A program made the translations under genes and the position numbers. The notes under the pieces are model-generated. The model had not been told where the DNA came from and searched no databases. It worked only from the letters and a program-made list of their open reading frames with translations. From the NCBI GenBank assembly GCA_963969365.1, contig OZ017750.1, forward strand, positions 682,001 to 746,000: a stretch of 64,000 nt of DNA, given 5' to 3'. The stretch is from Asterochloris sp. CNOR1. Taxonomy: Eukaryota; Chlorophyta; Trebouxiophyceae; Trebouxiales; Trebouxiaceae. Positions 1,201 to 61,311 of this stretch are shown here, in pieces (position 1 is the first letter of the stretch; each line of letters opens with the position of its first letter).

Positions 1201-4200
1201 TCAGGACACTGTACGGCCATAGGAAACACCTGCGGAGGCAGCATCACTGTCAAAGGCAGCGCTTACACTGTGGGCCAAACCCCATGCTGGTCAAGCAGGC
1301 ATCCGCATCGAGCCACATCACAACAAAGTGCAGGGACTGGACAACTATGTGGCGCAGTCCACGTTGCGGCACAAGGAAGCAGAGGCACTGAGTACTGACT
1401 GCAGGGAGGACCTCAGGGACTTGCCTGCAATGTACAGGTTTTTGGCCCACTTGTCCTTCACATGAGTGCTTGGGAAAGCAGAGGTACGCAGCGTCTCCTG
1501 GGTCTCATCCATGGGGCGGCGTCGGGGAACACTCAGCACGAAGGCGGCCTGGTCAGGGGTGGCGGCACAGGCAGTGATGCGGAAGCCTGCATGCAGGCGA
1601 GTGCGTGGTCAGGCAGGGCCAGGAGATGAGTGAGGCTGCAGCAGAGACTGCTCAGAGGTGGCAGGGCTGGCACAAGATCCAGCAGCCCAGGCATTATGAC
1701 CCGTTTTTGTTTGCAATTGCCAGACAGCAGGCCAGAAGAGCTGCTGCACATCAATCAGACCATGCAGCGGCCGCCACTGACCAGACTGCAGCGCCTGTTT
1801 GCAGCAAAAGGGGCCCGGCATTTGCAGCAGCCTGGTCTGGCACGACTGGGATAGCAACCCGCAGCATAGGCATTCTGACCCAGCTCTGTTGAGACCTGCC
1901 AGACAACAGGGCTGAGCAGCTGCTGCACAACTTCCAGCCAGAGCACAGGGCTTGCCACCCGCCAGACCTTTGCTGCATGTAGCAAAGGCGTCTGGCCTTC
2001 ATAGCCAGGCCTTGCCTGGCGACCCTTGAAAGGTCGCGACTGCACCGGCACGGCTGCAAGCCTGCCACCAGTCAACCCTGAGAGGAGCATGACGGGACAG
2101 GCACAACTGCAAGCCTACCACCGGGTCTGATATTCACAGCTTCCCTCCATCAGATCTGCTGCCAGCCGGCAAGAAGCGCCTTAAATCGCAGCTCACCTCC
2201 GCCAGCGTCCCATCTGCGGTGGATGCCCTCGCTTGGGTACTGGAAGTCCAGCTCCACGCACTGGTCGATGAAACCGGCGTTGCGTGACATGACCACGGCC
2301 CAGCGGGTGTGGCTGGTGGCCATGCAGGTCACGTAGAAGCCCTCCTTCCATTTTTTATTTATCCACTTGAAGGGGAAGCTGTCAGACACCTGCAGCGAGG
2401 GGAGAGCAGGGCTCAGCAGGCCGCACCTCTTCACTGCTCTGTGGCAGCTGCCAGTGCTGTAGCAGATTAGCTAGACGAAGCAGCATTGCCTCTGGCTGGA
2501 CAAGGAGCTGCACAGCTGGCAGGGCCCGCTCATGCTGTGCTGCGTGTCCACGGCGGCTCAGAATGATGACAACAGGGGGGTCGTACTGCTGTAGCTGCGC
2601 TCCTGCATGATCATCCCACAAACGCGGAGGCATGGGTCCCGCGCCCGGCAACACAAGTACTTGGCACTGATGCTAACTGCCACTGCCTGCCCTGCATGTC
2701 ATTCAGCAGGCATCAAGGAGGCCACCTTGTAGGACTGCTGGGTGTAGGGGGTGCCCTTGCTCATGACCACGAGGCTGCTGCCTGAGGTGCTACCGGCCAT
2801 GGCGGTGATGTAGAACCCGTCCTCCCACTTCTCCATGATCCACTCCTTGGGCAGGAACTGGGTGCTCAGCTCATAGACCTGCAGGCACAGGCAGAAGGGC
2901 TTGAGTTAAGGTGTGGAGGTGAGAAGCAATGACGTGACACCTGCGGGCGCCCCCAGCAGGGCTTCAGGCTGACAATACATGTGCAGTAGCTGTGAGCTCG
3001 GCTTGTACACCTGCAGGGTACTTGTGTGGGCAGGAGTCCACATGGAGTTGGCAGACTCTGGCTCAACGACTTGCAAACAAGGGAGTCGTGTTGTGAGGAT
3101 CTGCATCAGAGGAGCGGCTGCAGAGTGGAGGTGAAACCAGGGCACCCATGCTGCAAGAAAAAGCATCAGAAAGGCAGCCGGCCGCTCTTGTGCCCCACCT
3201 GGGAGCTGAAGCCAGTGCCGGCGTCCATGATGAGCGCCCACAGCTCCTGGCAGCAGGCCACGCTGCTGATGTACAAGCCATCGTCATTGCCCTTCTCCAC
3301 GTGCTGGTCCACACGTGTGTTGGCCACATTGTAGTGGTACCGCTGCTTCATGGGCCTGCATGTTGCAGAAATGCAGCAACCTGATGAGGGCCTGTAGGCG
3401 CAGCATGCAGCAGAATGCCAGAGATCTTGGAAACAGGAAAGGCTCGTCAGACACGGCATGCACCGCTTACAGGAGCACTCCACGGGAGGTTGGCCATCTG
3501 CAGCTGCTCATAGCGCCACAGCGGCTTTGTTGAAGAGCACGCAGCGAGCCCTTTGCATTGGCCTGAGACTCCAGCAAGGCCTTGTCCATGGCACGAGGGC
3601 TGTGGTGCATGCACAAGCGCTGGCCATGCACCAACCCCTGCAAATGGACGCACAGGTGGGCGTGCAGTGCAGGAACCTAGACTTGGAGCAGCCCACCTGT
3701 GTGCATTGTAGACGGTAATCCACTGCGTGGCAGGCAGACCCAGCCGGATCTTCTTCTTAGGCGCCTGCAGCTCCGCCGCCTCATCCTCCATCTGATCGCG
3801 CGTGCGCTTCTGGCCAACCTGCACGCACACCAGGACATCGTCGGACACAGCTCTTCCAGAACAGGCGATCCCCCAGCAGCTGCGTCACGCTTGGCAGAGC
3901 ACTGTTGAGGCACATGCCCTGTACAACAGAGCCCAGCCATGCTTCAGTGCTGTCCTGCAGTTCTGATTTCGTGTGCGCCTCTGGCCAACCTGCACACATA
4001 AACAAACAACAGCAGCATCAAGACACACATGCACCTTGACTTCACATGTTGTGCATGCAACCAGCATGCCTGCACAGGGAAGGCCCTGCATACACCCGGC
4101 CCTGGAGGCGTCATAGGCTTGCCACAGCAGGCACACACGACAGCGATATCATAGCCTGCACAGGGGCCCTGCTGAAGCACTCTGCAAGGCCATGCACACA

Positions 4201-7200
4201 AGCGGCCCTGGCACCACACCAGACTTGGCTAGAGTAGTCCTGCATGGTTCTTGCACATGCCACCTGACCCGGTGCAGTCTGCAACACTGTCTTCCACCAC
4301 CTTGCATTGCAGACAATTGCAGGCCTTGGCACAACACCCAGAGCCAAGCATGGCTGGTGCGCTCACCTTCAGACTGTCTGTCAGTATAGGCCGCTGCGGC
4401 TGGGGCCCGCACAGCGGCTCAAAGAGCCCCAGGTAGGCTGAGTACTTGGGGTCCTCATCAAAACGCAGGTTGACAACGGCCTCAGCAAACTGCAGAGCAG
4501 CATTGGGTCTGGCTGGACACGCATGTGAGCTCTTTAAGTCAGCACCACGCAGAGCACCACCAGGCTAAGCTCAGCAGTTTCGGGTCAGGCTCAGCAAAAC
4601 TGTTGGCCACCACCTAAATAGATTGCAGGGCAGCTTGGGCAAGGCTCAGCAGCTTAGGGCCAGAGTCAGGTTGCTTGGGAACTTTGGCTTTTGCAGAAAG
4701 TGCAGGGCATCATCAAGCTCAGCTTGATAGCATCAGGCCAGGCTCAGCACATGTTTTTCAGCAATTGACCACTGCCTGAGATACCTGCAGAGCAGCATCA
4801 GAGAACGCTCAGCAGCAGCAGGCCCAGATCAGCACGGCATCTAAACAGGTCATCACCGCCTGAGCAAACTGCAGGGCAGCATTGAGCGAAGCTCAGCAGC
4901 TTCAAGCCAGGCTCAGCAAGACCACCGCCTGAACAAACTGCAGGGCAGCGTCAGGCCAGGCTTGGCAGACGCTGGGGACATGAGCCCCTGCTGCAGGGCT
5001 GTTGAGCACTCCAGCCTCTGCCAGCGTGGCAGCAGAGCAGTCTATATGCTGCAATGTAAGCTCAGCCAGGCAGCACTGGGTCCAGACACCTCACCTGCCG
5101 GAAGGCTGCTGGCGTGTAGCGGCACAGCAGCTCTGCAGAGGTGGCCATCTTCTTCTTGCACACAAGGAAGCCCTTGTTGTCTCCCTGCAGGACAGATATT
5201 CCCAGTTGCCTGGGTGCAGGTTGTGCACCGCTGCATATCACTGCCACCTGCTGCTGCCAGGCAAGTACGTCTTGAGATGGAGCACTGCAGGACTGGCCAT
5301 CTGTGTTGCTCAAGGTGCAGCCAAAACATCACAGCAAGCTGTTTGCACGAACCAGATGGAGACTGCATGGGGAGCAGCAGCCACACCACAGCATCCAATG
5401 GAGGCTCCTACCTGGTAACCCTGCCAGGGCAGCCTCCCCTTGAGCAGGAACAACAATGTGTAGGCCAGAGACTCTAGGTCATCTCGCCTGCTGGCAGTTC
5501 GCCCCAGGTGGGCGTGCACACTGGCATACCGCACTGTGCCCCTACAGACACAGCCAGCTGAGGATAAATAGCTGATGAGTGCAGCAGCAGTCAGAGAGGA
5601 GACCAAGACAAGCTGGCTTCCTTGGCTCACAAAGAGAACAGTCCACTCACCCATATGTAGCAGTCCTGCCAGTGATGAGTAGGGACCAGGAGAGGGCACA
5701 GGGGAGGATCACGTATTGCAGCAGCACTAAAACAGGCATCAAGCACCGTAAATTGCCTCTCAGAACGCCCAGGCAAAGTAGCTACTCGCCTGAACACATC
5801 AGGCCGCTGGTCATACTCCACATGTGTGCTGCATACAGCGTCCTTCCAGCGTGTGGCTGCAGGGCAACGATTGAGCCCTCAAAGTATGTTTGAAGAGGCA
5901 GAAGATTGCCAGGCACTTGTGACATCAAACACCCCCCGGCAAAGTTTGCATGGAGCTGGAAGTGAGACATCAAGCCCCTTCCCTTGACATGCTGAGTGGC
6001 TGCAGGGGCACAGGCTGTATCTGCAAGAAATTGAAAAGGAGTGCAGGGAGGCAGGAAGGTACATGAAGAACGCTCGAACGCTCCCCAACATGAGCAGATG
6101 GGGTCATTTGGGGCTTTTGATGGCAACCTTCAAACAGAGGGAGGCAGCACAGAGTTGGGACGAGACTGACACCTTGAGAAGACAGCCATTCAATGACCCA
6201 CCAAGACCGAGGTCGACCAGATACAACTTTTTGGTGTTGGGCGTCTCAGGCTGGCCCATGAGGAAGTTTTCAGGCTTCACATCACCATGCACATAGCTGC
6301 AGGCACAGGGCAGCGGCAGCTTGAGAGATGAATGTCGCTCTGCAATGCAGCGTGCAGAGCAGCAGATAGCTGCAGGCAAGGCGAGTGCAGAGTCACTTCT
6401 AAGTGCGTCTCAGCAGCGTGCGAGCGGCAGTGGCGTGCCAGACCCAGCATGGCAGCAGACCCTGGCTCAAGACCTGCAAGAAGCACCCAGTGGGAGGCTC
6501 TATCCAGGCAGGAGCCTTGCACCGGGACATTATGTCCAGTGCACGCAGAGAGGGCTGCAGACTGTGGATCTGCCAGGAGGCTCACCCCTTCTCATGGAGC
6601 TTGTGAAGAATGGAGAGCGCCTCCACTGCAATGCAGGCCACCATCTCCTGCGACATGACCTGCCCCTGGGAGTTCCACACATCCCATAGGCTGGGGCCCA
6701 ACATGTCCATAACCTGCAAGACAGCAACTGCTGCGCGTTCCCGTGGGGCGTCTGGATCACTCTCGCTGCGGCTTGCAGCAGGGCGGCATGCACATTGCGG
6801 CGGCCCACACACGGCCAAATCTGTTGCTGGCTGTGATGGACAGCACCCTATTGGCTTGCAGCCTGCTGAAGGTGACACTGACAGTTCTGAACTCAAGCTG
6901 CATGCCCTTCCAGCAGCTCAGCGGGACAAGCCTGCGCAGATGCACAGCTAGCTCCGCATAGTCAGGTCAGTCCCAAAAGCATGCAGCAGCTTGACAGAGC
7001 AGCAGCTCACCATGACGTAGTAGTCCCCTTGCCTGCCTTTGTAGTGGACTTTGGGGATGCCATGCACGCCGCCCATGCCAGCCGAGGTGAGCGAGCTGCA
7101 GAAACACAGCGAATGTCACTGTGGCGCAACCGCTCAACTTGGCCACACAAGAACCGCAGGATCTCAGTGAGATGGTGGAAAGGCCTGCTGCAGCTTGTCA

Positions 7201-7909
7201 CTTGCTCGCATAAGAATTAGCTTGCAGCACAACAATGCAGGCAAGCAGCCGCACCTGTACACAGACCACTCATAAGGTGGCCCATAGTTGCAGCCCTTGC
7301 TGCTCCTGTGCTCAAACTTGAGCGCAACCTGCAGGACAGGGAGCTTTGCTCAGTCATTCACTAACTGCGGCAAAGGGCACAGGCTCAAAGTGTGGTGCAG
7401 ACGTATACATATGTAGGTGTGCCATACTTTTCTCAGGCGCCTGCAGCTGCTGCACAAGTCACCAACCAGCTTGCCCTGCCGGGGCAAGCCTGGTCTGCCA
7501 TCCAAACTGGCTGTAGACTGGCCCAGTGCGACACCTCATACCCTCATACCCGTGAGGTGATCAGGTCATCCTCACCTCATTGGCAGAGGCTCCGTCCTTG
7601 ACTGTGTTGGGTGTGGCACGCTTGCCCACATACACCTGGCCAAACCCACCCTTGCCTAGCTTGCGGTCCACGATGTACACAGGGGAGCCCCCAACTTGGC
7701 ACTGCAGGTCAGTGGACACGGCTCAGGACAGCACTTGACGCAAATGCTAGTGGCCTTGGTTTCCCATGCCAGGACATCAAGCAACAACAATCAAGGCAGG
7801 TACACTGCAGGAGGTAGCCAGCAGGACGTACCTTCTCGGGCAGAGGGGCCGTGCTCGCCTCATCCTCCTTGCCCTTCTCGCCACTGTTATGCTTCTCATT
7901 CTTTGCCAT
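1201..7909 (-). CDS. MUT9-like serine/threonine kinase (CK1-related histone kinase)
   Basis: Sixteen exons encode 603 aa: 7832-7909, 7576-7701, 7255-7328, 7011-7095, 6586-6713, 6202-6296, 5790-5856, 5412-5541, 5095-5184, 4367-4489, 3697-3818, 3199-3355, 2726-2878, 2197-2389, 1425-1586, 1201-1229. The kinase domain is about residues 30-330: glycine loop GKGGFG (42-47), VALK lysine 72, CK1-type HGDVKPEN (167-174), and VDLG at 191-194 instead of DFG. The long C-terminal region ([44 protein letters not shown], ending GRTVS) is diagnostic for the MUT9-like kinases. The Chlamydomonas founder Mut9p phosphorylates H3T3 and acts in transgene silencing, so a nuclear role is inferred. Introns 7 and 15 need GC-AG splicing (GCGAGT and GCAAGT donors) to keep the conserved frame. 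Start: ATG at 7909-7907; an in-frame ATG 24 nt upstream is possible. Confidence 0.93.
1640..2100. repeat. Degenerate tandem repeat (about 179 bp) in kinase intron 14
   Basis: Intron 14 of the MUT9-like gene holds two clear copies of a segment running from GCATTNTGACCC to CTGCTGCACA, at about 1690-1750 and 1869-1930. Weaker flanking similarity extends the copies. Unlike other introns in the window, I cannot show that the unit contains the neighbouring splice junction. Confidence 0.6.
3958..4003 (-). repeat. Duplicated 5' end of kinase exon 11 with its acceptor (decoy)
   Basis: Reading the minus strand, exon 11 begins at 3818 after GTGCAG with codons for [10 protein letters not shown] copy beginning at 3989, also after GTGCAG, encodes VGQRRTRNQ. 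The copy lies 171 bp upstream inside intron 10. It then diverges and meets an in-frame stop, so it looks like a dead acceptor-side duplication. Confidence 0.8.
4490..5094 (-). repeat. Array of copies of the exon-10 acceptor region in intron 9
   Basis: This 605-bp intron is largely built of GCTCAGC-rich degenerate units of about 65-160 bp. The real exon 10 acceptor (CTGCAG|TTTGCTGAGG on the minus strand) sits at 4489/4490. Related copies keeping CTGCAG plus GCAAA/CAAA context occur near 4625, 4787, 4871 and 4936. Copies get less similar with distance. Confidence 0.65.
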
Positions 7910-8365
7910 GTGCTTGGGAGCACCAGGCTGCAACTCAGGGTGGTCTCAGGGAGGCCACAGCATAAGTTCTGCCTGCTGATCTTATTGCCAACTCCTCCCC
8001 GTAGCTGAGAAACGCCAGAAGCTGGCAGACCACAAGCGCTGGATGCTTGTCAACTGCAAGGTCCAAGTGCAAAACCGTATTCAGCCTCCAAGCAGCGTGC
8101 TGATATCAGGCACGAGCGGTGAGGCCTCGCACAGGTTGATCTTGGCGAGGAGACTTGGCGAGGTCCAAAACCCTGTTGGAAAGTGCAGAACCTTTCTCAA
8201 CTGCAGAGCTGTCATGCTGAGCTGCAGGCCTTCGGTCCAGCCGACGCACTGACAGATCTGTACAGTTGTGCTAGAAGATCCTGAGCAGGTGCTAGGTCCT
8301 CCAGGATCTCCTCCCCTGCATCCCAAGCAGTTGTGCTGGATGGTCGATCTGTGAGCCCTGGAGGC
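7910..8365. promoter_or_regulatory. Divergent promoter region, MUT9-like kinase / RCC1 gene
   Basis: About 456 bp separates the two proposed start codons of oppositely oriented genes, so both promoters and 5' UTRs must lie here unless the RCC1 gene has an unseen upstream exon. No clear TATA element is visible. Open frames on both strands inside it look like composition shadows. Confidence 0.5.
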
Positions 8366-11300: not shown

Positions 11301-12736
11301 CGGCACCGTTGACTGCAGGTGCAGGGCAGGCTCTGAAGCAGTGTTGCACATGTTTTTGAGCTCATCATTCATTGTGCAATGATGCCTGCAAACTCAGCTA
11401 TTACACATGTGGCTAGGCGGTGCAGCGCCAAAGTACCTTTCTGAACCAGTGCCTGATCCACCTTCAAGCTCATGAAGGCAGCTGCAGTGCTGCTCTGTGA
11501 GCCCCACACCCCAAGGCTCGCCCACCCTCGAGCATCGCACTGCCTTGGCTGCAGGGGGCCCCGACCGGTGGCGGGTCATCAGCATCTCCTGTGGGGGGCG
11601 CCACTCCCTTGCGCTGGCCCTGCCTGACAACGGGCCCCGCGACGGCGTGCCACGCCCTCACTCCTTCCGCCAGTCGCTGACTAGCGATGGGCAGGATGCA
11701 GACGGGGAGCTGGAGGACACTGAGGAGCTGGAGTGCTATGATGACGGTGGGTCCCCCGGGGTGTGCTGAAAATGCCCCAGGGTACATCATGCCTCAACCT
11801 GGACCTCTATCAGGGAATATGCCTGCCCCTTGACCTGAAGACCGTACTGAAGGGTTTACATAGGCTGCACTTTCTGATCTGCTGGACCAGGGAATATGCC
11901 TGCCCTTTGATCAGAGATCATTCTGGGGGGTTGTTATGACAGGCTGCCCCAGCTCTGATTTGCTGCAATACGAACGTGCACAATAGCATCAATAGGTCTT
12001 AATAGGCCTTGAGAGCGCCGCAATCAGACCGTTTGCCGCTTGCTAACACCATCTGCAGCCAGACACATATGATGGGATTAGGATGAACGGGCAAGTGGCT
12101 TTCTCCTGCACTTTGAGCTGGATGAAGGCAGGCGGTTGTCACGGGCGGCAACTCTTGCCAGCTGTTGTAATGAGATAATGCTGGGCTCATGTGACTGCCC
12201 TTTGGCGCACGTGATGAGTAAGCCAAAAGTTGGTGCCCTGGCGGCAGCCAGACATTCAACTTTGCTGGCCAGATTGGTGCTGTTGCTCAGTCATTTGAGT
12301 TGCACTTTTATGTCATATTCCCCTGCAACTGCCGCGATGTGATCGTACTGCCAGATCAGGCGGGCTGCTGTGGGGATTGACGCCAACTCATGTTAAGCAT
12401 GCTGCCCTGTCGAGGCAAGTCCCTTCAAACAGTTTGTTCATGGTCGCAGAGGAGGATGACGCAGAGGATGGTGGGGCAGAGGCCCAGCTCAACCCTGAGT
12501 CCCTTGTGGCAGAGCTGGACAGAATCGAGTCGGCAGATGCACTGGCACAGCGGGAGCTCCAAGGCAGCCAGCATGAGACGCAGCCGCCGGGCAGCTCAGA
12601 CGTCAGCCCCCATGACCAGGATGCGGCCCTCCAGGGCACCAGCAGCCCAGAGTCCAGCATTCACATGGACATCAGCAGTGCCATAGAAAGCACACTGACT
12701 GCAAACAACCTGAGAGAGCCTGATTCTGACAACTGA
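8366..12736 (+). CDS. RCC1-repeat (beta-propeller) family protein
   Basis: Ten exons encode 562 aa: 8366-8457, 8573-8696, 8850-8945, 9052-9146, 9410-9668, 9945-10072, 10312-10475, 10714-10965, 11555-11746, 12450-12736. RCC1 blades repeat the pattern WG..YGQLG followed by AAGGxHS: GWGVAEDGQL, AWGGNEYGQCG with AAGGMHSVAI, TWGEPWGEF, SWGINDYGQLG with AAGWHSLAI, AWGRGEYGRLG with SCGGTHSMVL, TWGRGSFGRLG with SCGGRHSLAL. Blades fill about residues 50-440, enough for one seven-bladed propeller. The last 95 residues are acidic and polar. It resembles a plant RCC1-family clade rather than UVR8, because no UVR8 C-terminal motif is seen. Family members include Ran-GEFs and unrelated scaffolds, so a precise role is not assigned. 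The N-terminal exon and start (ATG 8366) are tentative; all later joins are phase-consistent. The stop is only 123 nt before the next start codon. Confidence 0.85.
11811..11966 (+). repeat. 77-bp tandem duplication in RCC1 gene intron 9
   Basis: Two diverged copies start with CAGGGAATATGCCTGCCC at 11811 and 11888 and end before CTGATNTGCTG. They lie within the 703-bp intron before the last exon. No splice junction is obviously included. Confidence 0.7.
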
Positions 12737-12859
12737 AGGCTGCTTAAATGGAATTTATATATCTGTCCTGCGACTTACCTTCTTTCCAGACAAATGTCTG
12801 GTCTGATTCTGTGCGCATGCCACAGCGGTCCTCTGCCAGACTGAGAGGCCCCGGCTGCA
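12737..12859 (+). other. 123-nt spacer between tandem RCC1 and STY kinase genes
   Basis: The gap between the RCC1 stop codon and the proposed ATG of the next gene on the same strand is very short for two independent eukaryotic transcription units. It contains one AT-rich stretch near 12757-12765. No strong terminator or promoter element is recognisable. Confidence 0.5.
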
Positions 12860-15800
12860 ATGTCTGTAGGCATCGCCATACCAACGGCAGCCCCTGAGTT
12901 CAGCTCCCCTCACGTCTGTGGCTCGGCCGGCAGCTACAGCTTCATGAGTCTGCGCAGTAAGAAGCCCAGCAAGACCGACGTGTGCCAGGACTTCATACAG
13001 AAGCTCCGTGACCGGCGTGGCATCGAGTTGGAGGCTCCTGGCGTGATAGAGGGGATTCAGCAGCACTTTCAGCAGCTGCCCACCCGCTATGCCCTGGACG
13101 TTAACATCGGCAGTTTGGACGTGCTTAATCACAAAAGGCTGCTGGACAGTGCTAGGCAGGACCCCTCTGCCGTCTCTTTCCAAGTGCGGCCAGTAGATGT
13201 AGCGCCAGGCCTCCATGGCTCAGCCAACATGGACAAGCGCCCATCATTTGGGAATCTTGATTCGCTCACAGAGGTGAGCTTCAGGCCCTGCCTGTCTTCA
13301 AGTGCTGCACTCATGTTCATGCTGTGCTTGTCTGGGCTCAGATCAAAGGCTGATGGCTCCATTGCAGGCTGCCAGTCACCATGCGCAGAGGATTCCCAAG
13401 CCAGGCGCCTTGCCGCGGCCAGCCTTTGGTTCATCCCCCAACCTCCAGGTCCGTGCATTTCATTCATGCACTTTGCTTGCCTGAGGGCATCTGGACACTT
13501 TGTGCGGGAGTACACTCCATGTCTGGGCTGCATCTCAAGAGCGTCGGAATGCCTCTTGTGCCTTGAAGGGCGCCCTGATCCAGCCCCTTTTCAGAGACCT
13601 TGACATTCAGGTCGGCTTGGTCAGCAGCGCGAGCTTGCACAGGCTCGCAACCACATGCTTGGCATGTTGCTCTGCCTGAGCTGCCTGAGCTTTCCCCCTG
13701 ATGACTTCTTTGCCGTCTACTGAGATTTCAGCACAGATTCTGCAGCTGCACAGCATGTCATCATGGAAGCCCGCAGCAAGGTGATGCTGCTGAGGTTGCA
13801 CCTGCTTGCTCTGGTGCACAGAGTGCCAATGGCCAGCTGGCCTTTGCACAAGGCAGGCTGCTGGTGCATGGTGTCCAAATAGCTTTGCAAAGCAGTGCAT
13901 CCTAAGACCATGCAGCTTCGTAGGGTTCAGTCGCAAGCTGAGATGCCCTACTGGCAGCTGCAAGGTGACAGGCAGGGCCATGTATGGCCCTGCATGCAGT
14001 GCAGAGGCGAATGGCTGACTGGGACGGCACCTTTGTCTGACAGCTGCAGCCGCGCCGTTTGAGGCAGGCTGATTGGCCTCGGCTCACTTTTTGCATGTGC
14101 TGCAAGCAGCTGCGAGCAGTGGCACTGTTCTGCGTCAGAGGCTGGTGTTGTCTTCGAGCAGATTCAAGGGAGGCCTGTGTGCAGCTGCAGGCTCATCAAG
14201 CCGTACTTTGCGGTCGTCTAGGCGTGAGTTGGTGCAGCCAGTGTTGAGGGGAGCATGCTGCCGCTGCAGGCGCTTGTGCTGGAAGCAGAGGAGCGTATGG
14301 AGGGGCATGGGGAGACCCTTGGCAGGGAGGCTGCCTTTTTTGAGGTCACCATCGCATCTGTGGACCAGCCCAAGCTGCTCAGCAGGCTGTCAGAGGCTCT
14401 GGTGCGTGCTGGAGTCAAAAGTCTGGATGGCCATGCTGCGCAGGACCAGACGCGCTGCTGGGTGGATGCGGCATTGCTCAGCTGCTGGTCACATACGGCG
14501 TTGCTCAGCTGCTGGGCAAAGCTCAGCTGGCTGCGCCGCTGGGCTGTGTAGCACTGCTCATGCTGATGCAGCAAGTGCAGCGTCCACTCTCCACATCTTG
14601 GACATTTACTGTCACTATGGCTGCTGAAACCTTCTGTCATGCTTGAGCACTGCTTGTATGCTGGAGGCTCTGCCACAGACACAGGCTGCCAGGGAGTGCT
14701 GCGTCTGCACACACAGGCACAGGCACAGGTTGCTGCTGTCTCGGCTGCAGGGCGACCTGAACCTCAACATCTGCGAGGCGCACGCCTTCAACACGAAGGA
14801 CAAGTTCTCGCTGGACGTCTTTGTGGTCAATGGCTGGAGGGGCGAGGTGCGCAGCTGCATCCCAATCGGCTGGGAGCAACCGTCAGGACTGCCTCGTCAC
14901 AGATGCAGGGGTTGCTGCACAAGCAGCTGCACCAGTTGCTGCGCTGGCATCTGCACCACAGCCAGCCGCAACAGCTGGCTCAGCTTAAGCCGAGAGGGGC
15001 ATAGCTGATATGTGCTGTCAGGCTGAAGCAACCAGTCCCATGAGTTGATCGCTAAGGAGTGCAGTCGCAGTGCAGCCAGCCTGTTCACCTCTTCCCCTGC
15101 TGTTACATGGCCACCCCAGCACTGTCCAGAGGCTGCTGTGCCCATGGGCCAATCGCCATGCGGCACTGCTTGTGCAGGGAGCTTCAATGGTTGCTTTGGC
15201 CCTGTGCAGGGCACAGACGACTTGGAGGAGGTGCTCAGCGAGCGGCTGCAAGAGCTGCCGCCTCCATTGTCGCGGGGCCCCTCAGGGTCGGGGCATGCCG
15301 CCCGGCAGCAGTCAGCAGAGGATTTCAGCTTCCCAGAGGACATGGACACCAGCGCTGAACAGGCAAAGGTGAGGCGGCAACTGCAGCAACCAGCCAGCTG
15401 CAGAGGGTGCGGGAGGCAGCAGTTCGCCGTGTGTGAAGGGACACAGCAGACAAGCTGGCCTGGTTGGCGCACCTACGCTCAAGGCTACTTTTGCGGCAGG
15501 CACCCCGCAGGCTGTCGAGAGGCGCATCATAGTCACACTCTGGGGCTGCCATGAGTTGTTCCCTCTGTGCTGGCTCATCATGGTCACCGCTGCGAGTTAG
15601 GCAGGTTTCTCGACGCAACTCAGTCCTTGCCTGCCTGTACTGGTCTCCTTGCACACCGGAATACTGCCTGCAAGACATGCGTGTCAGGCCCTACCATATA
15701 GCTAACACCCTGCTGGTGCCCCACCTGCCTTTTTCTGCAGCCAGACCTGCAGGGCAGCAGCGCTCGATGGACTGCAATTTGCCAGTGTGGCACATGCCGG

Positions 15801-20194: not shown

Positions 20195-24733
<4,539 letters not shown>

Positions 24734-48900: not shown

Positions 48901-51900
48901 TCATGGAAGCTGGGCAATCTTAGGGCGCTGCTCTGGTGCAAGAAGTAGCCAGGAGGAGCCGCGGCTTCAGGCATGCTTGCTGGCTGCAGGCCAGCATTGA
49001 CTGTGATTGGGGCTTTGTGCAAGCTGCTCTTTTCGTGTCCAGGCATCAAGCTCATAGCCCTTGTGTCTCGACTGCCGCTCAGCATCATGCGTGACTGTTG
49101 ACTTGAGCGCATGCTACCTCTGTACAGGGTCAGCAGATCTCCAACTCACAGATTCTCGGCTCATGATCGACATCGGAACGACAGTCCTGGCCGCAACCAG
49201 CGCAGCAGGGACTATCCCAGGCGTGAGGATCGAGACAGGTGCCTGCTGACTTCTTACTGCTCCAGCTGGCTGCGTCTGCATTTCCTCAGGTCCTCAGTGG
49301 GATGTGCTGCATGCGTGATAACCTGCCATGTTCGAGACCTCCCTGCACATCAGTCTTTTTCTGTTCGCGCACTTGTTTTGGCCAGCCGCCAACTGATCAG
49401 CATTGCTGGCCAGGTTGCTTGCTTGGAGAGCAGCCTGCACAACCTGGCATTGCGGAAAGACCTGCAAGCATCTGGCCCCATTACCATTGCAAGAAGGTGT
49501 CTGCTTTTGCAGGGACAGGCGGCGTGAGGATGTCAGGGACAGGAACCGAGAGCCAGACAAGGACAGGGCGCCAGACAGGCGCCGCAGCCCGGAAAGGCGC
49601 CAAAGAGCAGAGCCAGGCAGGGCTGCCAGGCACTCCCGGGACGGTACTGATGGTGGCAAGGGCCGGGATGCTGACACGCCTGCTGCCAAGGGGGCACCTC
49701 AGCGACGCCGCAGCCAGAGCCCCTCTGGTGACAGGCACCCTGTTGAGGTGAGCGCCTGCCATGGCCCCCTTGCACTGCACCTGGTGCTGCTGGCAGGGGT
49801 GCTGTGTGCAAGGCGGGCTGCCATGCAGGGTGCAGCAAGCTGCGACTTGCTTCTGCCACCATGTACGCCATGCTCTGAGGTGGGGGCCTCTGCGGCCACA
49901 AGCAAAGCTGCCTGTGCTGGTCCATTTCTCCTTGCCTCAGCTTCAATACCCCTGCAGGGTGCAAGGGCTCAGCGATGTGCCCAAGCTGACTTTAAAGAAC
50001 CTAGCTGGTGCTCTACAGGGGTTGGGTGACGTGTCCAGGACAGCGGATCGCAGGGCCAGCGATGCTGAGGCCAAGGCGCTACGCCTGCAGCGCTGGAAGG
50101 AACGCAACGCAGGCAGCTCCCTGGTGGGAACAGGCAGCGGCAGCGCCGATGGCAAGTCCCAGCCAGCTGCAGTTCTTGGCACTCATCATGGGCATGGCGG
50201 CCACCGCTCTCGCTCCCAGTCCAAGTCCCCTCCTGCCAGGCGGCGCCACAGCTCACAGGAGGATGGCGAGCTGGCAGGTACGCTGCCATGTGGTGTATGG
50301 GCATGTTGCATGGCACATGCATAAAGCAGGCACGATACATGGGTAGTGCACAACACCTGCAGGTGGCATGCCTGCAAAACAGCACTGCTGTGCCCTGATG
50401 GCAGCCTGCCTGGCATTAACAGGGAGGGAAGCAGCTGGGATGTTGCCTCACGACCCCTGTTCTGTGCCTGCAGCCCAAGTTGCTGAAGACCAGAAATGAG
50501 CTCAAGGAGAGGTTTTTGAACCTTTGTGTTTGCTGCCTCAACACCCATTCACCTGACAATCACTGTGTAATGTCATAGCCTAGCTGGCCCTCTACACACA
50601 TGCCTCTCAAACAAGCTGCCTCTCCTTTGTGCTGGGGGCCTGAGAACTTGTGGTAAGCTGCCATACTCGGTGTCCCCTTGCTGTCCCTGTACTTGAAATC
50701 CTGGCACTGCATTGATTTGCTTCCTGGTATTGCCAGCTGCCTTGCCTCCACATGCCTGTCTTCCATCAGCCTGTCTCTTCCTTATGCAGGAGGCCCTGAG
50801 GATCTGTGGTCCGCAAAGGCGACAGCTGACGGGCCCCAGCGACCCTCCTGGGTGGATCCCAGCCCTGAGCAGAGGGCTGCTTTTGAGCAGCTCAGCCAGC
50901 AGGTCAGCACACAGATGGGGCCCTGGCTGGCAGCCCTGGGCTTGGAGCCAGACGAGGTTCTTGGCAATGCAGAAGCCATTGGAGGTGAGCAGGGCCGCCT
51001 CATGTGCACGAGCTGGTGGCTGCACCGTCAGGCGTGCCTGCTGCGTCATGCCAACTTCTCAAGTTGTACAAACGCAGCAACGTGCCCGGGTGCCGCACCG
51101 CACCCCTCAGCACTGCTTGCCACATGTGCACAGGCTCCCAGATGCTCAGCTGCCAAATGTTCCCCTCCATGATATTCCAAGATGTCTTTTTACAAAGTCT
51201 CGCTTGCCCTGTTCTCCGACTTGCTGTAAGAGTCCTCTGTGGGTGCACAATCACACCAGCGCTTACCCGGCTGCTGCAGGGCACGCTGACGAGGTCTGCA
51301 CCTCAGAGACAGGGATCTTTGGCTTCCTGCACACCTCCTACTTCAAGCCGACTTACCTGAGCTTCTGGGACAGCATGCATGATGGCCCCCAGATGCAGCC
51401 AGAGATGTTTTTCTTGGACATCGACAGGTTCCCAGACGGGCAGGCCAAGCTGCTGGAGGATGGCTCTCCAGTCATGGTGAGAGCAGTGTTTGAGATTGTG
51501 GTGGGCTGTTGCTGGGTATGCTCTGGCTGGGTGAGTGGAGCTGGCTGAGAGGGTCATGCGGGGCCCGGGCAGATATCCAGCCAATGCTGCTGCAGGAGGG
51601 CTCAGCAGTCAGTCTGGTAACATTGGCGGATGCATGCCTGTGGCAGGGCATGCGGTCTGCTGGATGCCTGGTGCAATGCAGACCTTCACACATGGGCAGC
51701 ACAAGCTGCTGGTGAGTGGCTCTGCAGCGAGGTTAGACTGGTGGCAGCTGCCTGGTGGGGCTGTGTCAGGGATGGCCACTGGTAGGGCCAATCCCCGGAG
51801 GGTGTGCCCTGCCAGGCTGAGACTGCTCAGGGTGTGCTGCTGCTGAGGAGGCAGGTCAGGCCACACAGATGACTTGAGCTTGAGGCAGTGTGCTCCCTCT

Positions 51901-54900
51901 GGAGCCGTCACCATGTTTTGTGACCTGTATCTGGGACTTCAGCGACCCTTTGGCCAATGCTGAGCTAAAAGTGAGGGTTCATATACGGCAAACGCAGCCA
52001 GGTTCCTTCCCTGCCTGCAGATCTGCCCCAGGCATGATGTTAACACCTCAGAATACCTTCAGCTCCAGCGTCTGCTCATGCCTGGCATGGAGTCAGATTT
52101 TCAGTGTAAGAGAGAGGCACCGCAGTGGATGCCACGCTGGTGGCGATGTCCTGTCATAGCCTCTGACGACCTGCGGCCGCGTGTCGTGGAGCGTGAGAGC
52201 CCTGACAACCCTCGGGTAAAGGTTCTGATCTGTTCAAGTGTCAAACGTAGTTGCCAAAACAGTCTCACGCTGCCGCAGTGTGCCCTGGGGTAAGCTTGGG
52301 GCATTAGCAGGTGCCCTGCCATAGCCTTCAACGACCTGCATCTGAGCATTCTGGACAGCATTTTCGGGGTACCCTTTAATGGTGCAATGGAGAGCCCTGA
52401 CACCAACAGCAGATGACACCTGCTGCTGTTGCACCCAGTCTCACAGGGCACTGTCGTTCTGATGAGCTCATTCTGTGCAGAAAAAGCTCCTCTGCACCAG
52501 TTACACTCCTCGATCCTCGCTCAAAGTCGCTTCCTTCTGACTGCAGGAGTTTCACCTGCAAGCGCCTTGGGAGAAACCCGGCCCTGCCGTGACTCAGCCG
52601 CGGGATCCCAGGCCCATGGACCTCAGAGGCAGCCCACAGTCAACCTTCATTGATCCACATGTGCTGCCAGTGCCCATGTTTGCATTCTGGGAGCAGATGG
52701 CCTTGCCACCCCCGGTAATGCCAGGTGAGGGGGCAGCAATGGATGGCAGGCCTGACTGCTCCTGTTTGTGTAGGGCTGTGGAGCTGGAGGCACAGCCTGT
52801 GCTGGTCTTGTGCCCCCATGTGCTGCCAGTGCCCATGTTTGCATTCTGGGAGCAGATGGCCTTGCCACCCCCGGTAATGCCAGGTGAGGGGGCAGCAATG
52901 CATGGCAGGCCTGACTGCTCCTGTTTGTGTAGGGCTGTGGAGCTAGAGGCACAGCCTGTGCTGGTCTTGTGCCCCCAAAATGCTGCTCTGCAGTCCAGCT
53001 GGCAGCCATGCCTGCCATTCCCCCGGCATGAGTGGCAGTACTGCCCAACGCTGTACTGCAGCACAGCAATGGCTGAGCTGTCTTTTGGCTACAGCAGTCT
53101 TCGTTGGCTGCGCTTGTTGGCAGTGTCATGCTGTCTGGTGAACAAGGGTCTTGTGATGGTGTTTTGGCCGGCACGTGAGGGTTGGTGGTGCAGGTGCTGA
53201 GGACTGCAAGGTGGACCAGCTGCAGCCAGGGAGCTACCGCTACTGGCTGCTCAATCTGGGTGCACGGCAGGCAGAGAGTGATGGCAGCTGGGCCAATGGC
53301 GGCGAGAACAGGGTTGAGGGCGAGGGGGAGGTGCTCAGTCGCCCAGGTGGGTTGAGCATCACCTTTTGCACACATGCACGCCCTGTCCATGAGTCAAGGG
53401 CAAAGGGAGGCGCAGAGCCGCCCAATGTGGGTCAGTGCTGCAACTAGCAGTGTCTCGATCTTTCCTAAAGCAGCAGCTTCTATTGTGAGTGGCGCATGGC
53501 CTGCGGTTGGCAGCAACAACCGCATGCTGTGATTGTGTGTCTCCTCCTGCCTGTTGGTCTGTGTCAAGACCCACTGTACTGCAAGCTTTGCTCCGCGCGC
53601 TGTGTGGCAAAGGACGTGTGCGTGGGCGCGGTGCATGCTTAGTCCTCTGCCCTTGCGTCAAGCATCAGCACAAACAATGGGAGTCAGTACCATGGGAGTA
53701 TCGCAGGACTGAGGAGGCTCACAGCTCTGGTGTATGTGCCTTACAGAGCATGGATGCTGCCAGAGCCTTCCAGTCCCAACAGCCCCCTCACAGCCCCCAA
53801 GCTGATTTGCGGGACCTCACTGGCTCCAGACTTCAGCACATGGTCTGCTTTGCTTGGTGCAGGTTCTGGCGAGCATCTGGAGCACCTGGACCCCCCGCCT
53901 GCCCCGCTGCGCAACACAGATGAGCCACCGCCACCGCCTCCCGGCGCGATGCAGGATGTTCGGTGGCAGCACCACATGGCAGGCATGCAGCAGGGCCAGC
54001 AGCCGCTGCCGTGGCAGGAACCCCCAGGACAGCAGCAGGAGCCTGCAGCACTGGCCGACCCCGAATCTGGTGAGCTCTCTTGCCAGGGGTTGCTTATGTC
54101 ACAGGCGGCATGCGAGACCTGTGCAAGAGGGGCAAGGCAGGGCAGGGCATGGCATGGCATGGCAGGGAAGCATAGGGTGGAGCACTGAACCACCGCAGTG
54201 CAACCCAGGCAGGCAGCGCTGCATCCTTGTGCATCACCTGCCTCTGCTGAGTGGGGTTGTTCTGATGGGCTCTCCCCTGATTTGGCTTTGCTTTCAATCT
54301 CATGACTATGATCATGATCGTGATCATAATCATTATCATGCTCAGACCCATTGCAGGCCTGGCTGGAAGTGCTGATGGTGCAATGCCCTGCTGCCGTGGA
54401 CAGGGTCTCTCTCAAGTGATTTTGGCCTGCTCCCCTCCAACTCTCAGCTCAGCTATCCAGCATGTGTTGCATTGCTGCTGCAGGGCTGTGGCGCTTTCTT
54501 CGAGACGGGAAGCTGACTGACAAGACGTACACCATGGCAGAGCTGCGCGACCGCATTGACTATGGTGACCGGGACCCTGTCTGGGGCGGGCTGGTTTGCA
54601 GGGAGTCGGACAGCCTCTGGCTGCATCTGCGCGAGGTGAGCCTGAGGCAGTGGGATTGGTTAGGCCTGACGGTATGCATGCATGATGTTGTGGCCCTTGG
54701 CTTCAATGCTGGCAGGCGGCCAGTAAGTTGTTGCATGCTACCAGCTTTTCTGGACACAGAAGGGCGCTGAGGAGTACTGGCAGCTTGAGGATGCCAAGCC
54801 TCAACTTATCTTTGATCTGTTGGCTTCATGATGTGCAATGGTGAAACTGCAGGCTCGCTGGACGCCAGAGGACCTGGCAGTGCAGTCAGCCGCAATGCAG

Positions 54901-57900
54901 GGGCAGCAAAGGGCGGCAGCCCCTCAGACTGCAGCCGCCCGGGGGCATGGTCTCGCTGCTGCTGACCCTGCAGATGATCCCAACCTGTCGCCTGAGCAGC
55001 AGAGCTCCCCCTACCTGCGCCACTGGTTTGAGGACCAGCGTGTCCACGCTCGCAAGCTGGCGCAGCAGCTGGCGGCCTCTGAGGCTGCAGGCTCCGCTCC
55101 CGCAGCCAGCTGGGCTAGTGAGGTGGTCTTGAGCCCAGCTTCGTTGCAAGCAGAGGATGCTGGGCTGCTGAATGGCCTGACTGACGCGACCTGGTTTGCA
55201 AGCTTTGACCAGGCTGCAGCCCAGCAGCGCCAGGTCAAGCAGCTGGCCGCTGCCCAGGCAGCAGAGGCCGCTGCTGCTGACTCTGCAGCAGTGGCTGCCC
55301 AGCAGCCTGCGCCAGCAGCAGGCCCAGCTGCAGAGCAGGCTGGTGTCGGGGATGCAGCTGCTGTGCAGGTGCCGCCCCACGTGCTGGCCGCGGTGCAGGG
55401 GCGCCTGCTGCTGGAGACCTTTGGCAGCAAACAGGGCGCGCAGCAGGGCGGCATGATGCTGATCTCCAATGTGAGCCCTGCTCATTGGACCATGTCTGCC
55501 TCACTTAAGAAAGAGCGCCCTCTGTACAGGCTGGGGCTGTGCAGCAGCCTCTGGCCCATGCGCAAGCCATGCATCATGTGTAGTATGAAGCACTATATGC
55601 ATCATCTCTTTGCCACTGCCTGTCACATGGCAATTCGTCAGCCTGCAGGTGCTGGCACAGGTGGTGAAGCAGCAGTAGGTCTTTGTGTGCGTGGGCACTG
55701 TCGGCTGCCACCCTACCAACGAGCACACTGGCTGAACAGTGCACGTGCCTCTGCAGCTGCTGGTGGAGGTGGTGGAGCAGCAGCAGGCACGCGCCAGGCG
55801 TGAGCGCCAGCAGCAGCAGCGGGAACGCCAGCAGCAGCGCGAGGCAGACCGGAGGCGCCAAGAAGCTGAGGCTGCGCGGTCTGCCCTGGAGCGCAAGGCT
55901 GCCAGCGAGGAGGCCGCTGCCAGGAGGCAGCAGGGAGCCCAAGCCGACGACGCGGCTGCTGCCAAGAAGCGGCGGGCTGCTGAGGGGGGGTCTGTCCAGG
56001 AGCAGGCGCGCAGCAGGCGCAGCCGCTTTGACCAGCTGGGGCCTGCTGAGGCGCCGGCCGGGCGTTCTGAGGAGCCTGGCGGCAGCAAGCAGGCGGTGCG
56101 CACCCTAGCCAGGCAGGAGCCCAACCCTCAGGAGCTTGAACAAAAGGGCTCTCAGCGGAGGGGCCAGGGGACGCAGCAGGGTAAGGCCAGGGAGCAGGCC
56201 CCTGCTGAGCAGCAGTTGCCGACGGCTCCTGCCAGGGGTGCACCCTCGCCTGCTGCAGCGTCGGCAGGCGGCAGCCAGGGCCTGTTGCCGGCCGGTGCTG
56301 GTGCTACATCTGGCGGGTCTGCTGTGCCACTGGCACCCGTGCCTGCTCAGCCTGGAGCGGAAGGACCCGCCCCGCTGCCTGCTGCCGTGCCACTCAGCAC
56401 AGCTGCTGGGGACCAGACGCAGCAGGCGGTTGCTGCCCCCCCAGCCGCGTTGCCGGACGCCGGGCTGCCGCACGCAGCCCTGCAGGGCGCTGCTACAGCT
56501 GCAGGGGAGCAGGCTCAGCTGCTGGGCGCTGACCACGTGATGCCAGCTGGTGCTGACCTGGACCTGCTGCAGCGGCAGCTGGCGCAGTACGCCCAGCAGG
56601 CACAGCCGCTGCCCTTTGCGTCCCCCGATGCCTCGCTGTCATCCACGGACGCTGGTCTACTACCAGACTGGGCGCAGCCCGCTGGCGCAGCAGCAGGGCA
56701 GGCTGCTGGGCCTCTGCCCAGCCCTAGGTCCCACAAGGGAGGCAGGCCTCAGGCAGAGGGTGGCCAGGCCGAGACGCAGCCCTCTGGCAAGCGCACCAGG
56801 CGGCAGTCGGGGGCTGCAGAGGCACCCCAGGGAGCGCAGTCCAGCGGGGATGACGCCGGTGGGGCAGCTTGTGACCCGTGACTGGTGCCTGCCGTCGCTG
56901 CTTTGCAGGGCAGATGCACCAAAGTGGCACCCCTGCTGCCCGTGGCTTCGCTGCTGGGGCTGGGCAGGCTCTCAGGGCCTGCACCTCTGCTCTGGGAGGG
57001 CAGTGCAGCAGCAGGTCTTTGGCTGCGCCGCTGAACTCCTGTCGCAAATTTCGTGTCGTGCTGCAGGTGCCAGCACGCCAGAGTCCCCGCAGCCAGACTG
57101 GGCCAGGGGCACCTCCAGCGCAGCAGCAGCAGCTGCTGACGCTGCCTCCAGTGACATTCCTGAAGAGGCCCGGATCGAGTTGGCAGAGTATGAGGCTTTG
57201 AAGGAGAGCCTCAGGGTGAGTACTACAGAAAGGCAGACAGCCCCAACTAGGGAGGGCTCTGAGTCTTGCCGGCTGACCAGTTTGCACAGCATGTTGAAGA
57301 GCTTAGCGAAAACCATCTGCCCAAGTCCTGCCACCTAGGACATTACTGGCCTGCAAGACAGAGCTCGTGTTGAGTGAGTTCCAGGCAAGTTCATCGCACC
57401 ATCATGGAGGCATGTGCAGCTCGGCCGCCTTGCAGCTGGCTCACTCTGGAGATCCCCTGACGGCAGTGTGGTCTTTGTGTCTCCGAGAACTTTGGCTCGT
57501 GCACTTGATGTGTGAGCCCAGAGCACTTGCTTTTGTGCAGCCCACAGGAGGCTTGCCTGGCTCCTGGACCAGTCAGTCCATGTCAGGGCAGACCTGGCAT
57601 CACTTTTAGGTCATGGCTGGCCCCACCCCACCAAGGTCTTAGCTTTTCCACTGAGAACCCCTGTGGCCCCGCCTTCCAGGAGGTCACAGACTGAGCAACT
57701 GCTGAAGGTCCTCTAATCTGATGCAGATCAAAATGGAGCCAGAGGCTGTGCGCGATCAGCAGGGCAAGCTTTGGAACAGCCTCGTCAAGTTTGATCGTGC
57801 GTCCTGTGAGGTGTGCCACCTGTTTTGTCTCCCTGCCATATGTCTCTCTGCCCGCGCCTGCTGCTGATGCTCCCCTTGGTAACTGGCAGCAGTGTCCAGC

Positions 57901-58838: not shown

Positions 58839-58915
58839 CCCTCTGAGCTATAAATCTGTTTAGGCACGATGCCGCCGAATACAATATGAGGCTGTTCATT
58901 AAGGCATGCATGTCT
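58839..58915. other. 77-bp convergent spacer, bromodomain gene / GLTSCR1 gene
   Basis: The two stop codons are only 77 bp apart, so the 3' UTRs of the two transcripts almost certainly overlap. This could allow antisense pairing. No other element is visible. Confidence 0.7.
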
Positions 58916-61311
58916 TCATTTCATGTTGCGATACAATTGAGTCGACAGTGACATCACAGGACCTTGCTGAGGTGCTGATGCATGAGGGGCTGCTGCTGCC
59001 GCCATGAACTGCTGGTATCTCAAGAGCATTGCCTGCGCCTGCTGAGCTTGAGCAATCATCTGAATCTGCTGTTCTCTTGATGCCTGCTGCGCTTGCTGGT
59101 GCACCACAGCCAGGCTTGACGGCACTGCCTGCTCCTTTTTGGCATTCAAGTCTGCATGCTGCTTGTAGTCTTCCAGCAGCCGCTTTGCAACACCATAGCT
59201 TACTTCTGATTCCACTGCAGCAGTGTGGCCAGGTTCTGGCTGCTGTTAAGGTTTGCATCACGGCCCAGTAAGCAGGAACCAAAAGATGTCTTAAACTGCG
59301 AGCACGGAGCAGCTGACATCTACACCCTGTGACTAAACGGCTGCATGGGCGGTCACATGCCACTTCTGCAGGCATGGCCACCACCACCACAACTTTGCAG
59401 GCATGGGCCCCTGAGGAGGACTGACTTATGCTAGGCATGGACATGCCAATGTTTCTAGACAAAGCACGAAGTGGCCAGAAGCTGACAGTCTGGTTGAAGC
59501 TCCCAACAATCTGCGGCCCTGAACTTGCATGGTACAGATCTGGGGCAGGGCACTCAGCAACAAGCAAGCAGGGCCTGAGATTCTGATGTACATTGCTGTC
59601 CTGCCTGTCCTGCAGACCCTTAAGCACTGCATGCACGCTGAGTAGTGTACCTCTCAGCTGTGCATGTGGCCCACCAATTCAGCACCCGCAACAAGGATGT
59701 GTTCACGTTCCCCCCTGCCAGGCAGCTTGACAGCTTTGCACCCGGCCATGCCCACAGACCACCCTGCATACCTCAAAGAAAGGTGACACCCAAACTCACA
59801 GTCTGCATCTCTCTCCCGCATGCTCTGCATCTTTTCGTCCAGGGCATTCAGGCGGCTGGCGATGTGCACTGCACGCTCCACATGCTCAGCTGCCCACAAG
59901 CTGCGCCGGCCGCACACCATGAGGCTGTGCCCCTCCTCGTCCACTGACTGCTCCCAATCCAGGGCCAGGTCATCCTCTGTCGCCAACACCTGCATTGCAG
60001 CAGGCAGGGGCCACCCTTGCTGAAGGCTTCTGGCTGGAAGCAGGCAGCAGACAGGGGCAGAGCTGGTGGAGCTGGTGTGGTACTGTGATGGCAGCCTGCA
60101 GGGCAAAACGGCCATAACTTTCAGATGGGTTGACCAACTGCTCCCACTCAGGGGCCAGGGCGCCCATTGTGGCGAGTATCTGCCCAGGTCAGATGCATAC
60201 ACATGATGGCCAGCCGGGTCATCCTCTGTCGCCAGCGCCTGCACAGCCAGGTGCACAAGAATTTCTCCCTGCAATATGCGGCTGCTGCTGCGGCGCTTTC
60301 TGCTCTTATTCCAGTGCCAGGTTGACCCCTGGTTCTGCAGCATTGATGAAAGGGGCGCCTTGAACCCTGGTGCATGCATGCCCGTTTCCTGTAATCCATC
60401 GTTGCGTATCTGGTAGCTGAGCAGCAAGCGGCACAGCAGTGCCAATGGGACCTGCAGAGAACGTGGACAGAGTCGCCTGCTCCCGTTTGTCAGCAGGCAG
60501 CACAATGGTGGCAAGTGCTGCCAGGATGTGCACAGACGCAGGCAGAGCTATGCAGGTGCTCTCACGCCCTGCTCCCAGCCAAGACAGTATTAGCCTGAGA
60601 GCCTGCAGGGGGCTGGAAGGAGCCAGTATGGTCTTTTCAGCATAAGCACCTGTAACAGACAGCACCTGCTGCCATGAGAAAAGCATGCTGGTGCTGTGTG
60701 CCGCCCGCACCTGCAGTGAGGGTGGCAGAGCCATGCTGGTTGCTAGCAGCCATCAGAGCCTGCACAGGGGGCAGGTGGTGTTCTGGTGGTGATGGGCGAA
60801 ATCACTGCTGTGGCCTGAGGGCAGGCGGCCCTTCATTGAGGTCGTCCAGGCTGACAGAATGTCTGCTGAAGCTGCTACTGTAATGGTGGTTTGCAAAGTC
60901 TGGGAGCATCTGATGCAGAGCACCTGAAACCTTGAATAACACAGATCGACATCTCAACCAGGGGGCTGAGCGCGGCAAGTGAGCAAGACGCAGCATGCGC
61001 GGAGTTTCTGTAGCATGCCGCACAGGGCCTCACGTGGTAGGGCAGCAGTCGTTCCAGTGCGTCCTCTACATTTCTGAAGGGCGTCTGGACATCAGGGCAG
61101 CAGACTTTGTGCATGTCCTCGGTAATGTAATCTGATTGGCGGCTTTTGCAGTCTGTCTCTGCCAGAGTCCCCTCATCTGCCTCCTGGTAGTCGTTAGCTA
61201 GTCCTTGCGTGTTTGTCTGCTCACTGCAACATGGCAGCACAAACATGATTGTCAGCCTGGCACAGCCTTCTGGCTGAGCACAACTGTCATGCTGGCTCAC
61301 CTGGGCTGCAT
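58916..61311 (-). CDS. GLTSCR1-domain SWI/SNF subunit (plant BRIP1/2, animal BICRA type)
   Basis: Four exons encode 229 aa: 61301-61311, 61034-61223, 59800-59989, 58916-59214. The core reads CCPDVQTPFRNVEDALERLLPYH, the hallmark of the GLTSCR1 domain (PD..TPF.SLEDA..RLLPYH). It is followed by the helical WEQ...ALDEKMQSMRERDADLESEV segment that completes the domain (about residues 35-135), then a Gln/Ala-rich tail (REQQIQMIAQAQQAQAMLL). In animals such proteins define ncBAF complexes with BRD9; in plants BRIP1/2 belong to BRM-containing complexes. A nuclear chromatin-remodelling role is inferred. The first coding exon is only 11 nt (ATG plus eight bases). Exon 2 joins directly to exon 3 in phase 0 across a 1,044-bp intron filled with copies of the exon 3 head. 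The gene is convergent with the bromodomain gene. Confidence 0.85.
59990..60560 (-). repeat. Acceptor-side array before exon 3 of the GLTSCR1 gene
   Basis: The real exon 3 starts at 59989 and encodes VLATEDDLALDWEQSV. Related heads on the minus strand start near 60178 (ILATMGALAPEWEQLV), at 60238 (ALATEDDPAG, with a nearly exact DNA match TGGCGACAGAGGATGACC) and near 60537 (ILAALATIVLP, acceptor lost). The resemblance is visible in both DNA and translation. Confidence 0.85.

Follow-up and report, generated by a model that had tools for sequence, protein, structure and literature searches.

By which process do introns come to contain copies of their own splice junctions? The question is raised by a stretch of 64,000 nucleotides from the green alga Asterochloris sp. 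CNOR1 (contig OZ017750.1, here C5, positions 682001-746000, referred to as the window; the genome comprises 56.4 Mb in 21 contigs). A sequence-only reading of the window had noticed that introns in at least seven of eleven genes hold direct repeats of the exon end plus donor site, or of the acceptor site plus exon start. It had suggested repeated tandem duplication across the exon-intron borders, with splicing staying at the outermost junction. We have followed these repeats in a sample of 344 kb, drawn from five contigs but largely from a single one. The copies are real, many of them span the border, their origin is local, they are associated with intron length and they recur on several contigs. 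We consider it likely that local tandem duplications, arising at random and filtered by splicing, lengthen the introns.

Direct repeats at exon-intron borders

Gene models were obtained with an unsupervised hidden Markov gene finder, self-trained on 304 kb (the window with the 200 kb that lie downstream of it on C5, plus 20 kb from C1 and a further 20 kb from C9). It yielded 81 genes with 455 exons and 375 introns of 276 bp median length, and the splice consensus AG/GTGAG for donors and (C)TGCAG/G for acceptors, the slash marking the junction. A further 40 kb from C14 and C18 was obtained later, when model and threshold were already fixed, and serves as the held-out set. The G+C content is 0.59.

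Local repeats are almost exclusively direct. At a spacing of up to 300 bp and at least 32 bits the window contains 30 direct and no inverted matches, and the 304 kb contain 121 direct and 7 inverted ones at up to 800 bp and 30 bits. The comparison of introns with their own flanking exons, as proposed in the sequence-only reading together with mispaired controls, gave a clear excess at the exon ends. At p<=0.01 a match to the own intron was obtained with the leading 45 bp of the downstream exon in 23 of 342 cases (3.4 expected; reverse-complement control 1) and with the final 45 bp of the upstream exon likewise in 23/342 (3.4 expected; reverse-complement control 8, which lies over expectation). 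Exon middles show no clear excess (2/271 and 5/261). Both sets together comprise 45 different introns, eight of which revealed no repeat at an expect value (E) of <=0.05 on inspection, which is about the chance contribution. At E<=1e-3, copies of exon tail plus donor were found in 26, of acceptor plus exon head in 25 and internal copies in 31 of 374 introns (any copy: 65/374). Pairing exon ends with introns of other genes gave 1 donor, 1 acceptor and 9 internal matches in 1116 trials, scored under a slightly different overlap rule than the own-intron counts. For introns of at least 600 bp, 320 mispaired trials gave 0, 0 and 9 matches, against 10, 13 and 16 in the 40 own pairings. In 714 trials with non-adjacent introns of the same gene there were 1 and 0 matches, as against 23 and 20 in the 423 own introns. 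A composition artefact due to CAG-rich introns and CTGCAG acceptors is ruled out, because inverted repeats, introns of other genes and other introns of the same gene all give few matches.

In total, direct tandem copies occur in 86 of the 423 introns and in 38 of the 79 intron-bearing genes. In 65 introns the duplicated unit crosses an exon-intron border, as a border-spanning tandem duplication should, at the donor end in 38 and at the acceptor end in 33, six introns having copies at both ends. In the window, copies occur in 19/66 introns and in eight of the 12 gene models with more than one exon. The latter figure becomes seven of nine genes when three apparently fragmented models are joined by eye (DUF7477 kinase, g11/g12, HGH1-like); the early estimate was at least seven among eleven. 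The pattern is not peculiar to this segment: copies are found in 21 of the 49 held-out introns and in other C5 DNA, if unevenly. The spacing of 100 border pairs, non-adjacent copies counted, has a median of 139 bp and quartiles of 109-240 bp, which is wider than the 80-180 bp first given.

The share of introns with copies rises with length: 1/41 below 150 bp, 7/133 at 150-250 bp (8/174 below 250 bp in all), 21/134 at 250-400 bp, 29/75 at 400-600 bp and 28/40 at 600 bp or more. Introns with an array have a median length of 475 bp, those without of 250 bp. Long introns are usually ascribed to transposons; among the introns of at least 600 bp in the stretches sampled from five contigs, 28/40 have recognisable tandem copies and 20/40 have copies of their own borders.

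Anatomy and origin of the units

Where the similarity is stronger, it extends over roughly the entire unit, as tandem duplication would give it: spacing 118 and match 151 bp (intron 15369-16093), 130 and 129 bp, 159 and 164 bp. In many cases the likeness is limited to the exon part and the core of the splice site, the adjoining intron showing 0.2-0.5 identity in ungapped extension. Such a pattern would be expected of a constrained exon paired with a copy that is free to decay. An example with copies at both ends is intron 31076-31754. The exon part of the copies has a median of 28 bp at one kind of border and 39 bp at the other; it consists of one exon end only and never appeared as a whole exon with both splice sites.

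The units proved to be locally derived, as had been supposed. A fast search of the whole genome, in which only the best candidates were scored, found each of the four units searched at one place only, and the near absence of matches to non-adjacent introns of the same genes agrees with this. A transposon or introner origin, or that from another dispersed repeat, was rejected on the strength of the four units searched and is hardly credible. Introners have been reported chiefly from lineages that evolve fast, green algae among them (PMC9860276), and like the arrays they affect introns throughout a genome. They are, however, mobile and alike between genes, whereas the units here are local, contain exon sequence and match mispaired introns in only 9/1116 trials; no dispersal of the kind was seen.

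Choice of the splice site and proposed mechanism

For four proteins chosen from array-bearing genes the best solved match was aligned. At all eight border-array junctions examined, the models spliced at the outermost sites align to the solved homologues without a gap; one junction lies in ribonucleotide reductase R2 (with several donor copies), four in glycine decarboxylase, one in thioredoxin reductase and two in MPP-beta. The coding product thus appears to be kept, or nearly kept, at border arrays. The spacing of border pairs shows no frame preference (36:37:27 modulo three, p=0.40). This lack of bias to multiples of three looks as if the inner site were hardly used. Taken at the protein level, homology and spacing suggest that splicing uses the outermost junctions, which agrees with what the sequence-only reading had assumed. 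That the copies lie inside the outermost sites is partly true by definition.

We propose the following course of events. Tandem duplications of small size, usually some 80-250 bp, would arise at random places of the genome, replication slippage or end joining being our guess for the mutational source. Those within exons would mostly be purged by selection and those wholly within introns would remain without effect. A duplication over one exon-intron border would yield two copies of the splice site, of which the spliceosome would stay with the one beside the intact exon body, that is the first donor or the last acceptor; exon definition may be the reason for this choice. With this choice the messenger RNA would stay the same while the intron would be longer by one unit, and the inner copy would become a decoy that decays roughly neutrally. 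Repeated events at either end would place donor copies on the 5' side and acceptor copies on the 3' side, and border copies would be recognisable longest because the copy of exon and splice site is constrained. A bolder version says that intron length here is set chiefly by a ratchet, in which border duplications pile up under a frame-blind rule of the outermost site and leave strong, silent decoys. This version we regard as quite possible and put forward tentatively.

Intron length in paralogous genes

The expectation that each duplication lengthens the intron agrees with the medians given above and with a pair of neighbouring paralogues on C5 (C5_g16 and C5_g17), which are 36% identical and have five intron positions in common. 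At one of these the intron with acceptor and internal copies (units of about 104-111 bp) measures 613 bp and its counterpart without copies 383 bp, a difference of 230 bp. At a second one, 702 bp with internal copies compare with 586 bp without. Paralogues of the thioredoxin reductase and DUF7477 genes, compared by eye without alignment and kept outside all counts, gave no clearly shared array position.

Among these genes, the second DUF7477 gene on C12 also has array introns. The second, divergent thioredoxin reductase (C5:1284001-1288000) has by eye a thioredoxin-like C-terminal part, and one of its introns contains an acceptor copy.

Weighing of random duplication against its rivals

A number of observations weigh against the random mechanism and are considered together here. 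The copies are unevenly distributed over the contigs, with 60/315 introns on C5, 10/27 on C14, 11/22 on C18, 3/26 on C9 and as few as 2/33 on C1. A single event in the whole sample exceeds 95% identity. The gene models are unsupervised, with intron ends in doubt at 4490-5094, 51501 and 52725, and the site choice is deduced indirectly. In the paralogue pair, unequal lengths are also seen at the remaining three shared intron positions, where no copies are detectable (703/403, 524/292 and 198/135 bp); therefore arrays are not the whole story of intron length.

Further points of this kind touch the coding status of the copies, which could be real alternative or duplicated exons skipped by the gene finder. 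Mismatches in the exon part are uneven over the codon positions (0.253, 0.202 and 0.274; p=0.003), with the fewest at second positions, as two coding copies might show; this dip can, however, be accounted for by constraint acting on the true exon alone. Decoy copies with at least 30 exon bases are mostly open, a stop being present in 10/61 and a net frameshift in 12, so that not each copy is proved non-coding. The decoy sites are often strong: 41% of the 27 GT-bearing donor decoys and 36% of the 33 AG-bearing acceptor decoys score above the 25th percentile of true sites, compared with 1.1% of random intronic GT and 2.3% of random intronic AG. Mismatches at third positions are nevertheless little above those at first and second positions, far from the third-position excess expected for two functional exons. 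In addition, the copies carry one exon end only, their spacing ignores the frame, and the homologues leave no room for added sequence at any of the eight junctions. Tandemly duplicated or mutually exclusive exons are for these reasons disfavoured, and we consider extra exons quite improbable.

An effect of selection on the decoy sites was likewise considered and dropped. The first count found AG and GT retained in 33/40 and 27/35 decoys; when the match was not required to reach the site, the numbers were 33/44 and 28/43. Because this recount sits beside an identity of 0.75-0.76 per base in the exon part of the copies, we make no claim of selection here.

The remaining points bear on whether splice junctions or transcribed introns are targets of duplication, for example by R-loops, breaks coupled to splicing or the CTGCAG acceptor motif. 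A model of random placement, using units of 60-260 bp and the observed intron lengths, predicts donor, acceptor and internal copies at 0.28:0.28:0.43, or 27:27:41. The observed placement is 36:29:29 (0.38:0.31:0.31), which gives a border share of 0.69 versus 0.57 predicted (p=0.03). A targeting of borders is not established by this difference. We tentatively ascribe the excess to easier detection, since one copy of a border pair is presumably constrained. Introns were also compared with chunks of intergenic DNA. On three contigs internal repeats were found in 37/374 introns and in 8/323 chunks (p=5e-5), a 3.6-fold excess per kb. With border-array introns set aside, the same three contigs gave 18/327 versus 8/323 (p=0.07), leaving a gap of up to twofold, and all five contigs gave 21/358 (0.195/kb) versus 13/384 (0.123/kb), which is a 1.6-fold difference (Fisher p=0.12). 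A duplication process specific to introns was therefore rejected, its 3.6-fold excess having fallen to 1.6-fold once border-array introns were dropped and two contigs added. Moreover donor and acceptor ends are about equally affected (38 and 33), though TGCAG occurs only at the acceptor. Our preference is for duplication at random that splicing then filters; targeting stays under consideration as a rival which we hold to be unlikely.

Tandem repeats are also seen in two stretches of the window called intergenic, at 11811-11965 (spacing 77 bp) and 27752-28008 (93 bp). These stretches may belong to introns of overlooked exons or untranslated regions.

Relation to known routes of intron gain

Intron gain by tandem duplication is reportedly described by Gao and Lynch (2009) and by Hellsten et al. 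(2011), as reviewed in PMC3443670. What appears to be new here is the growth of introns by border-spanning tandem duplication on this scale, the gain of introns by tandem duplication being known already.

Tandem duplication is presented as an established maker of introns (PMC3443670, PMC2891723). This makes the Rogers model, in which an exonic segment with AGGT is duplicated and then intronised, worth considering as a source of the arrays themselves. Both processes consist of local tandem duplication within genes with splicing that leaves the coding sequence unchanged. The difference is that a new intron arises from exonic AGGT sequence in the Rogers model, whereas an existing intron is lengthened here: the stronger copies carry existing intron sequence and a splice site as well as the exon side, one paralogue pair has the intron without the array, and the arrays tested did not show the pattern of intron birth. 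We judge this origin of the arrays very improbable.

A close case is the RNA-dependent RNA polymerase gene of potato, in which a duplication over an intron-exon boundary made a new intron (PMC4974935). There as here the duplicated segment consists of the 3' part of an intron and the 5' part of an exon. In potato, however, the duplication gave rise to an intron not present before, which has a cryptic donor, and it added exon sequence, while in Asterochloris the inner copy is absorbed and many genes are concerned. In Drosophila new intron positions are attributed to sliding or to tandem exon duplication (PMC2891723); tandem duplication near splice sites and free decay of the intronised copy are proposed there too, but the work is about new intron positions. 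No account of intron lengthening by border-spanning tandem duplication was found among the listed titles and abstract beginnings of open-licence papers, which is weak evidence of absence, nor in the excerpt of PMC3488318.

If splicing ignores the inner copies, border duplication offers a simple and nearly neutral route of intron growth. The graded duplicated junctions would then allow the choice between near-identical sites (exon versus intron definition) and the rate of decoy decay to be tested. Should the ratchet version be true, the genome would amount to a library made by nature, with duplicated splice junctions in the thousands, which shows how the spliceosome chooses between near-identical sites.

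Repeats and genes within the window

The copies identified in the window are compiled in Table 1. The near-identical pair at 52658-52975 (2 x 159 bp, 98%) had been named as the near-identical extreme of the series. The high identity stands, and yet as an intron case it is the weakest: the repeat might be coding, because 159 bp correspond to 53 codons and the frame is open through both copies. An assembly error is possible as well because of the 98% identity.

Table 1. Tandem copies found in the window, in window positions
Position	Strand	Copies	Intron and gene
1587-2196 (intron)	-	internal tandem copies 1659-1750 and 1838-1929, 73%	DUF7477 kinase gene (DUF7477 by Pfam)
2879-3198 (intron)	-	one acceptor + exon-head copy, spacing 132	
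3791-3998	-	acceptor + exon head: true border 3791-3827, copy 3962-3998, 37 bp, 86%	intron 3819-4366
4470-4968	-	multi-copy array, three copies match acceptor border	intron 4490-5094, 5' boundary uncertain
15737-16120	+	acceptor + exon-head copies 15737-15763 and 15915-16003; true border 16033-16120	intron 15369-16093, Raf-like kinase gene (kinase by Pfam)
17132-17542 (intron)	+	acceptor copy	Raf-like kinase gene
21339-21651	-	three units of about 98-101 bp, first at true acceptor	intron 21359-22261, thioredoxin reductase gene; junction compared with 1vdc
25575-25757	+	internal copies, 25 bp, 88%, spacing 158	intron 25409-25983, prefoldin gene
29358-29604	+	acceptor + exon-head copy and true border	intron 28986-29565
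30163-30291	+	exon tail + donor, true border and copy	intron 30198-30759
31060-31404	+	exon tail + donor, true border and two copies, 5' side	intron 31076-31754; unit with single place in genome
31625-31781	+	acceptor + exon-head copy and true border, 3' side	intron 31076-31754
33384-33961 (intron)	-	donor copy	DENN gene
34097-34222	-	acceptor + exon head, true border and copy	intron 34153-34611, DENN gene (DENN by Pfam)
34520-34638	-	exon tail + donor, copy and true border	intron 34153-34611, DENN gene
34859-35698 (intron)	-	donor copy	
39739-39900	-	exon head, true copy and intronic copy	intron 39827-40327
41016-41995	-	copies of the acceptor (one end) and of the donor side (opposite end); internal copies too	intron 41057-41934
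51429-51727	+	exon-tail copies 3' of own exon	exact donor and next acceptor uncertain
52655-52977	+	exon tail + donor unit, 2 x 159 bp, 98%; youngest event	frame open through both copies
55643-55787	+	acceptor + exon-head copy and true border	intron 55471-55756

The window genes are eukaryotic and plant-like. Pfam supports eight of the ten window proteins submitted, two having no match, and the families found are DUF7477, RCC1, protein kinase, pyridine nucleotide-disulphide oxidoreductase, prefoldin, DENN, bromodomain and DUF383. Among solved structures the thioredoxin reductase is matched best by 1vdc, which we take to be the Arabidopsis enzyme. By eye, the kinase-start and DUF7477 models (1345-7909) are probably one gene split by the gene finder, and the models g11 and g12 may be one gene.

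Two observations concern predicted DENN exons. Seven head-to-tail units of 15 bp at 38890-38998 encode a pentapeptide repeat, and ARAGORN reports a transfer RNA for cysteine at 34746-34831 on the plus strand, within an exon predicted on the minus strand, which is likely a false positive. Downstream of the window, at C5:817984-839060, a model of 41 exons (C5_g33) predicts a protein of 3023 residues with many short W-rich repeats, presumably comparable to Sfi1-type repeat proteins; the adjoining model C5_g32 is related to it.

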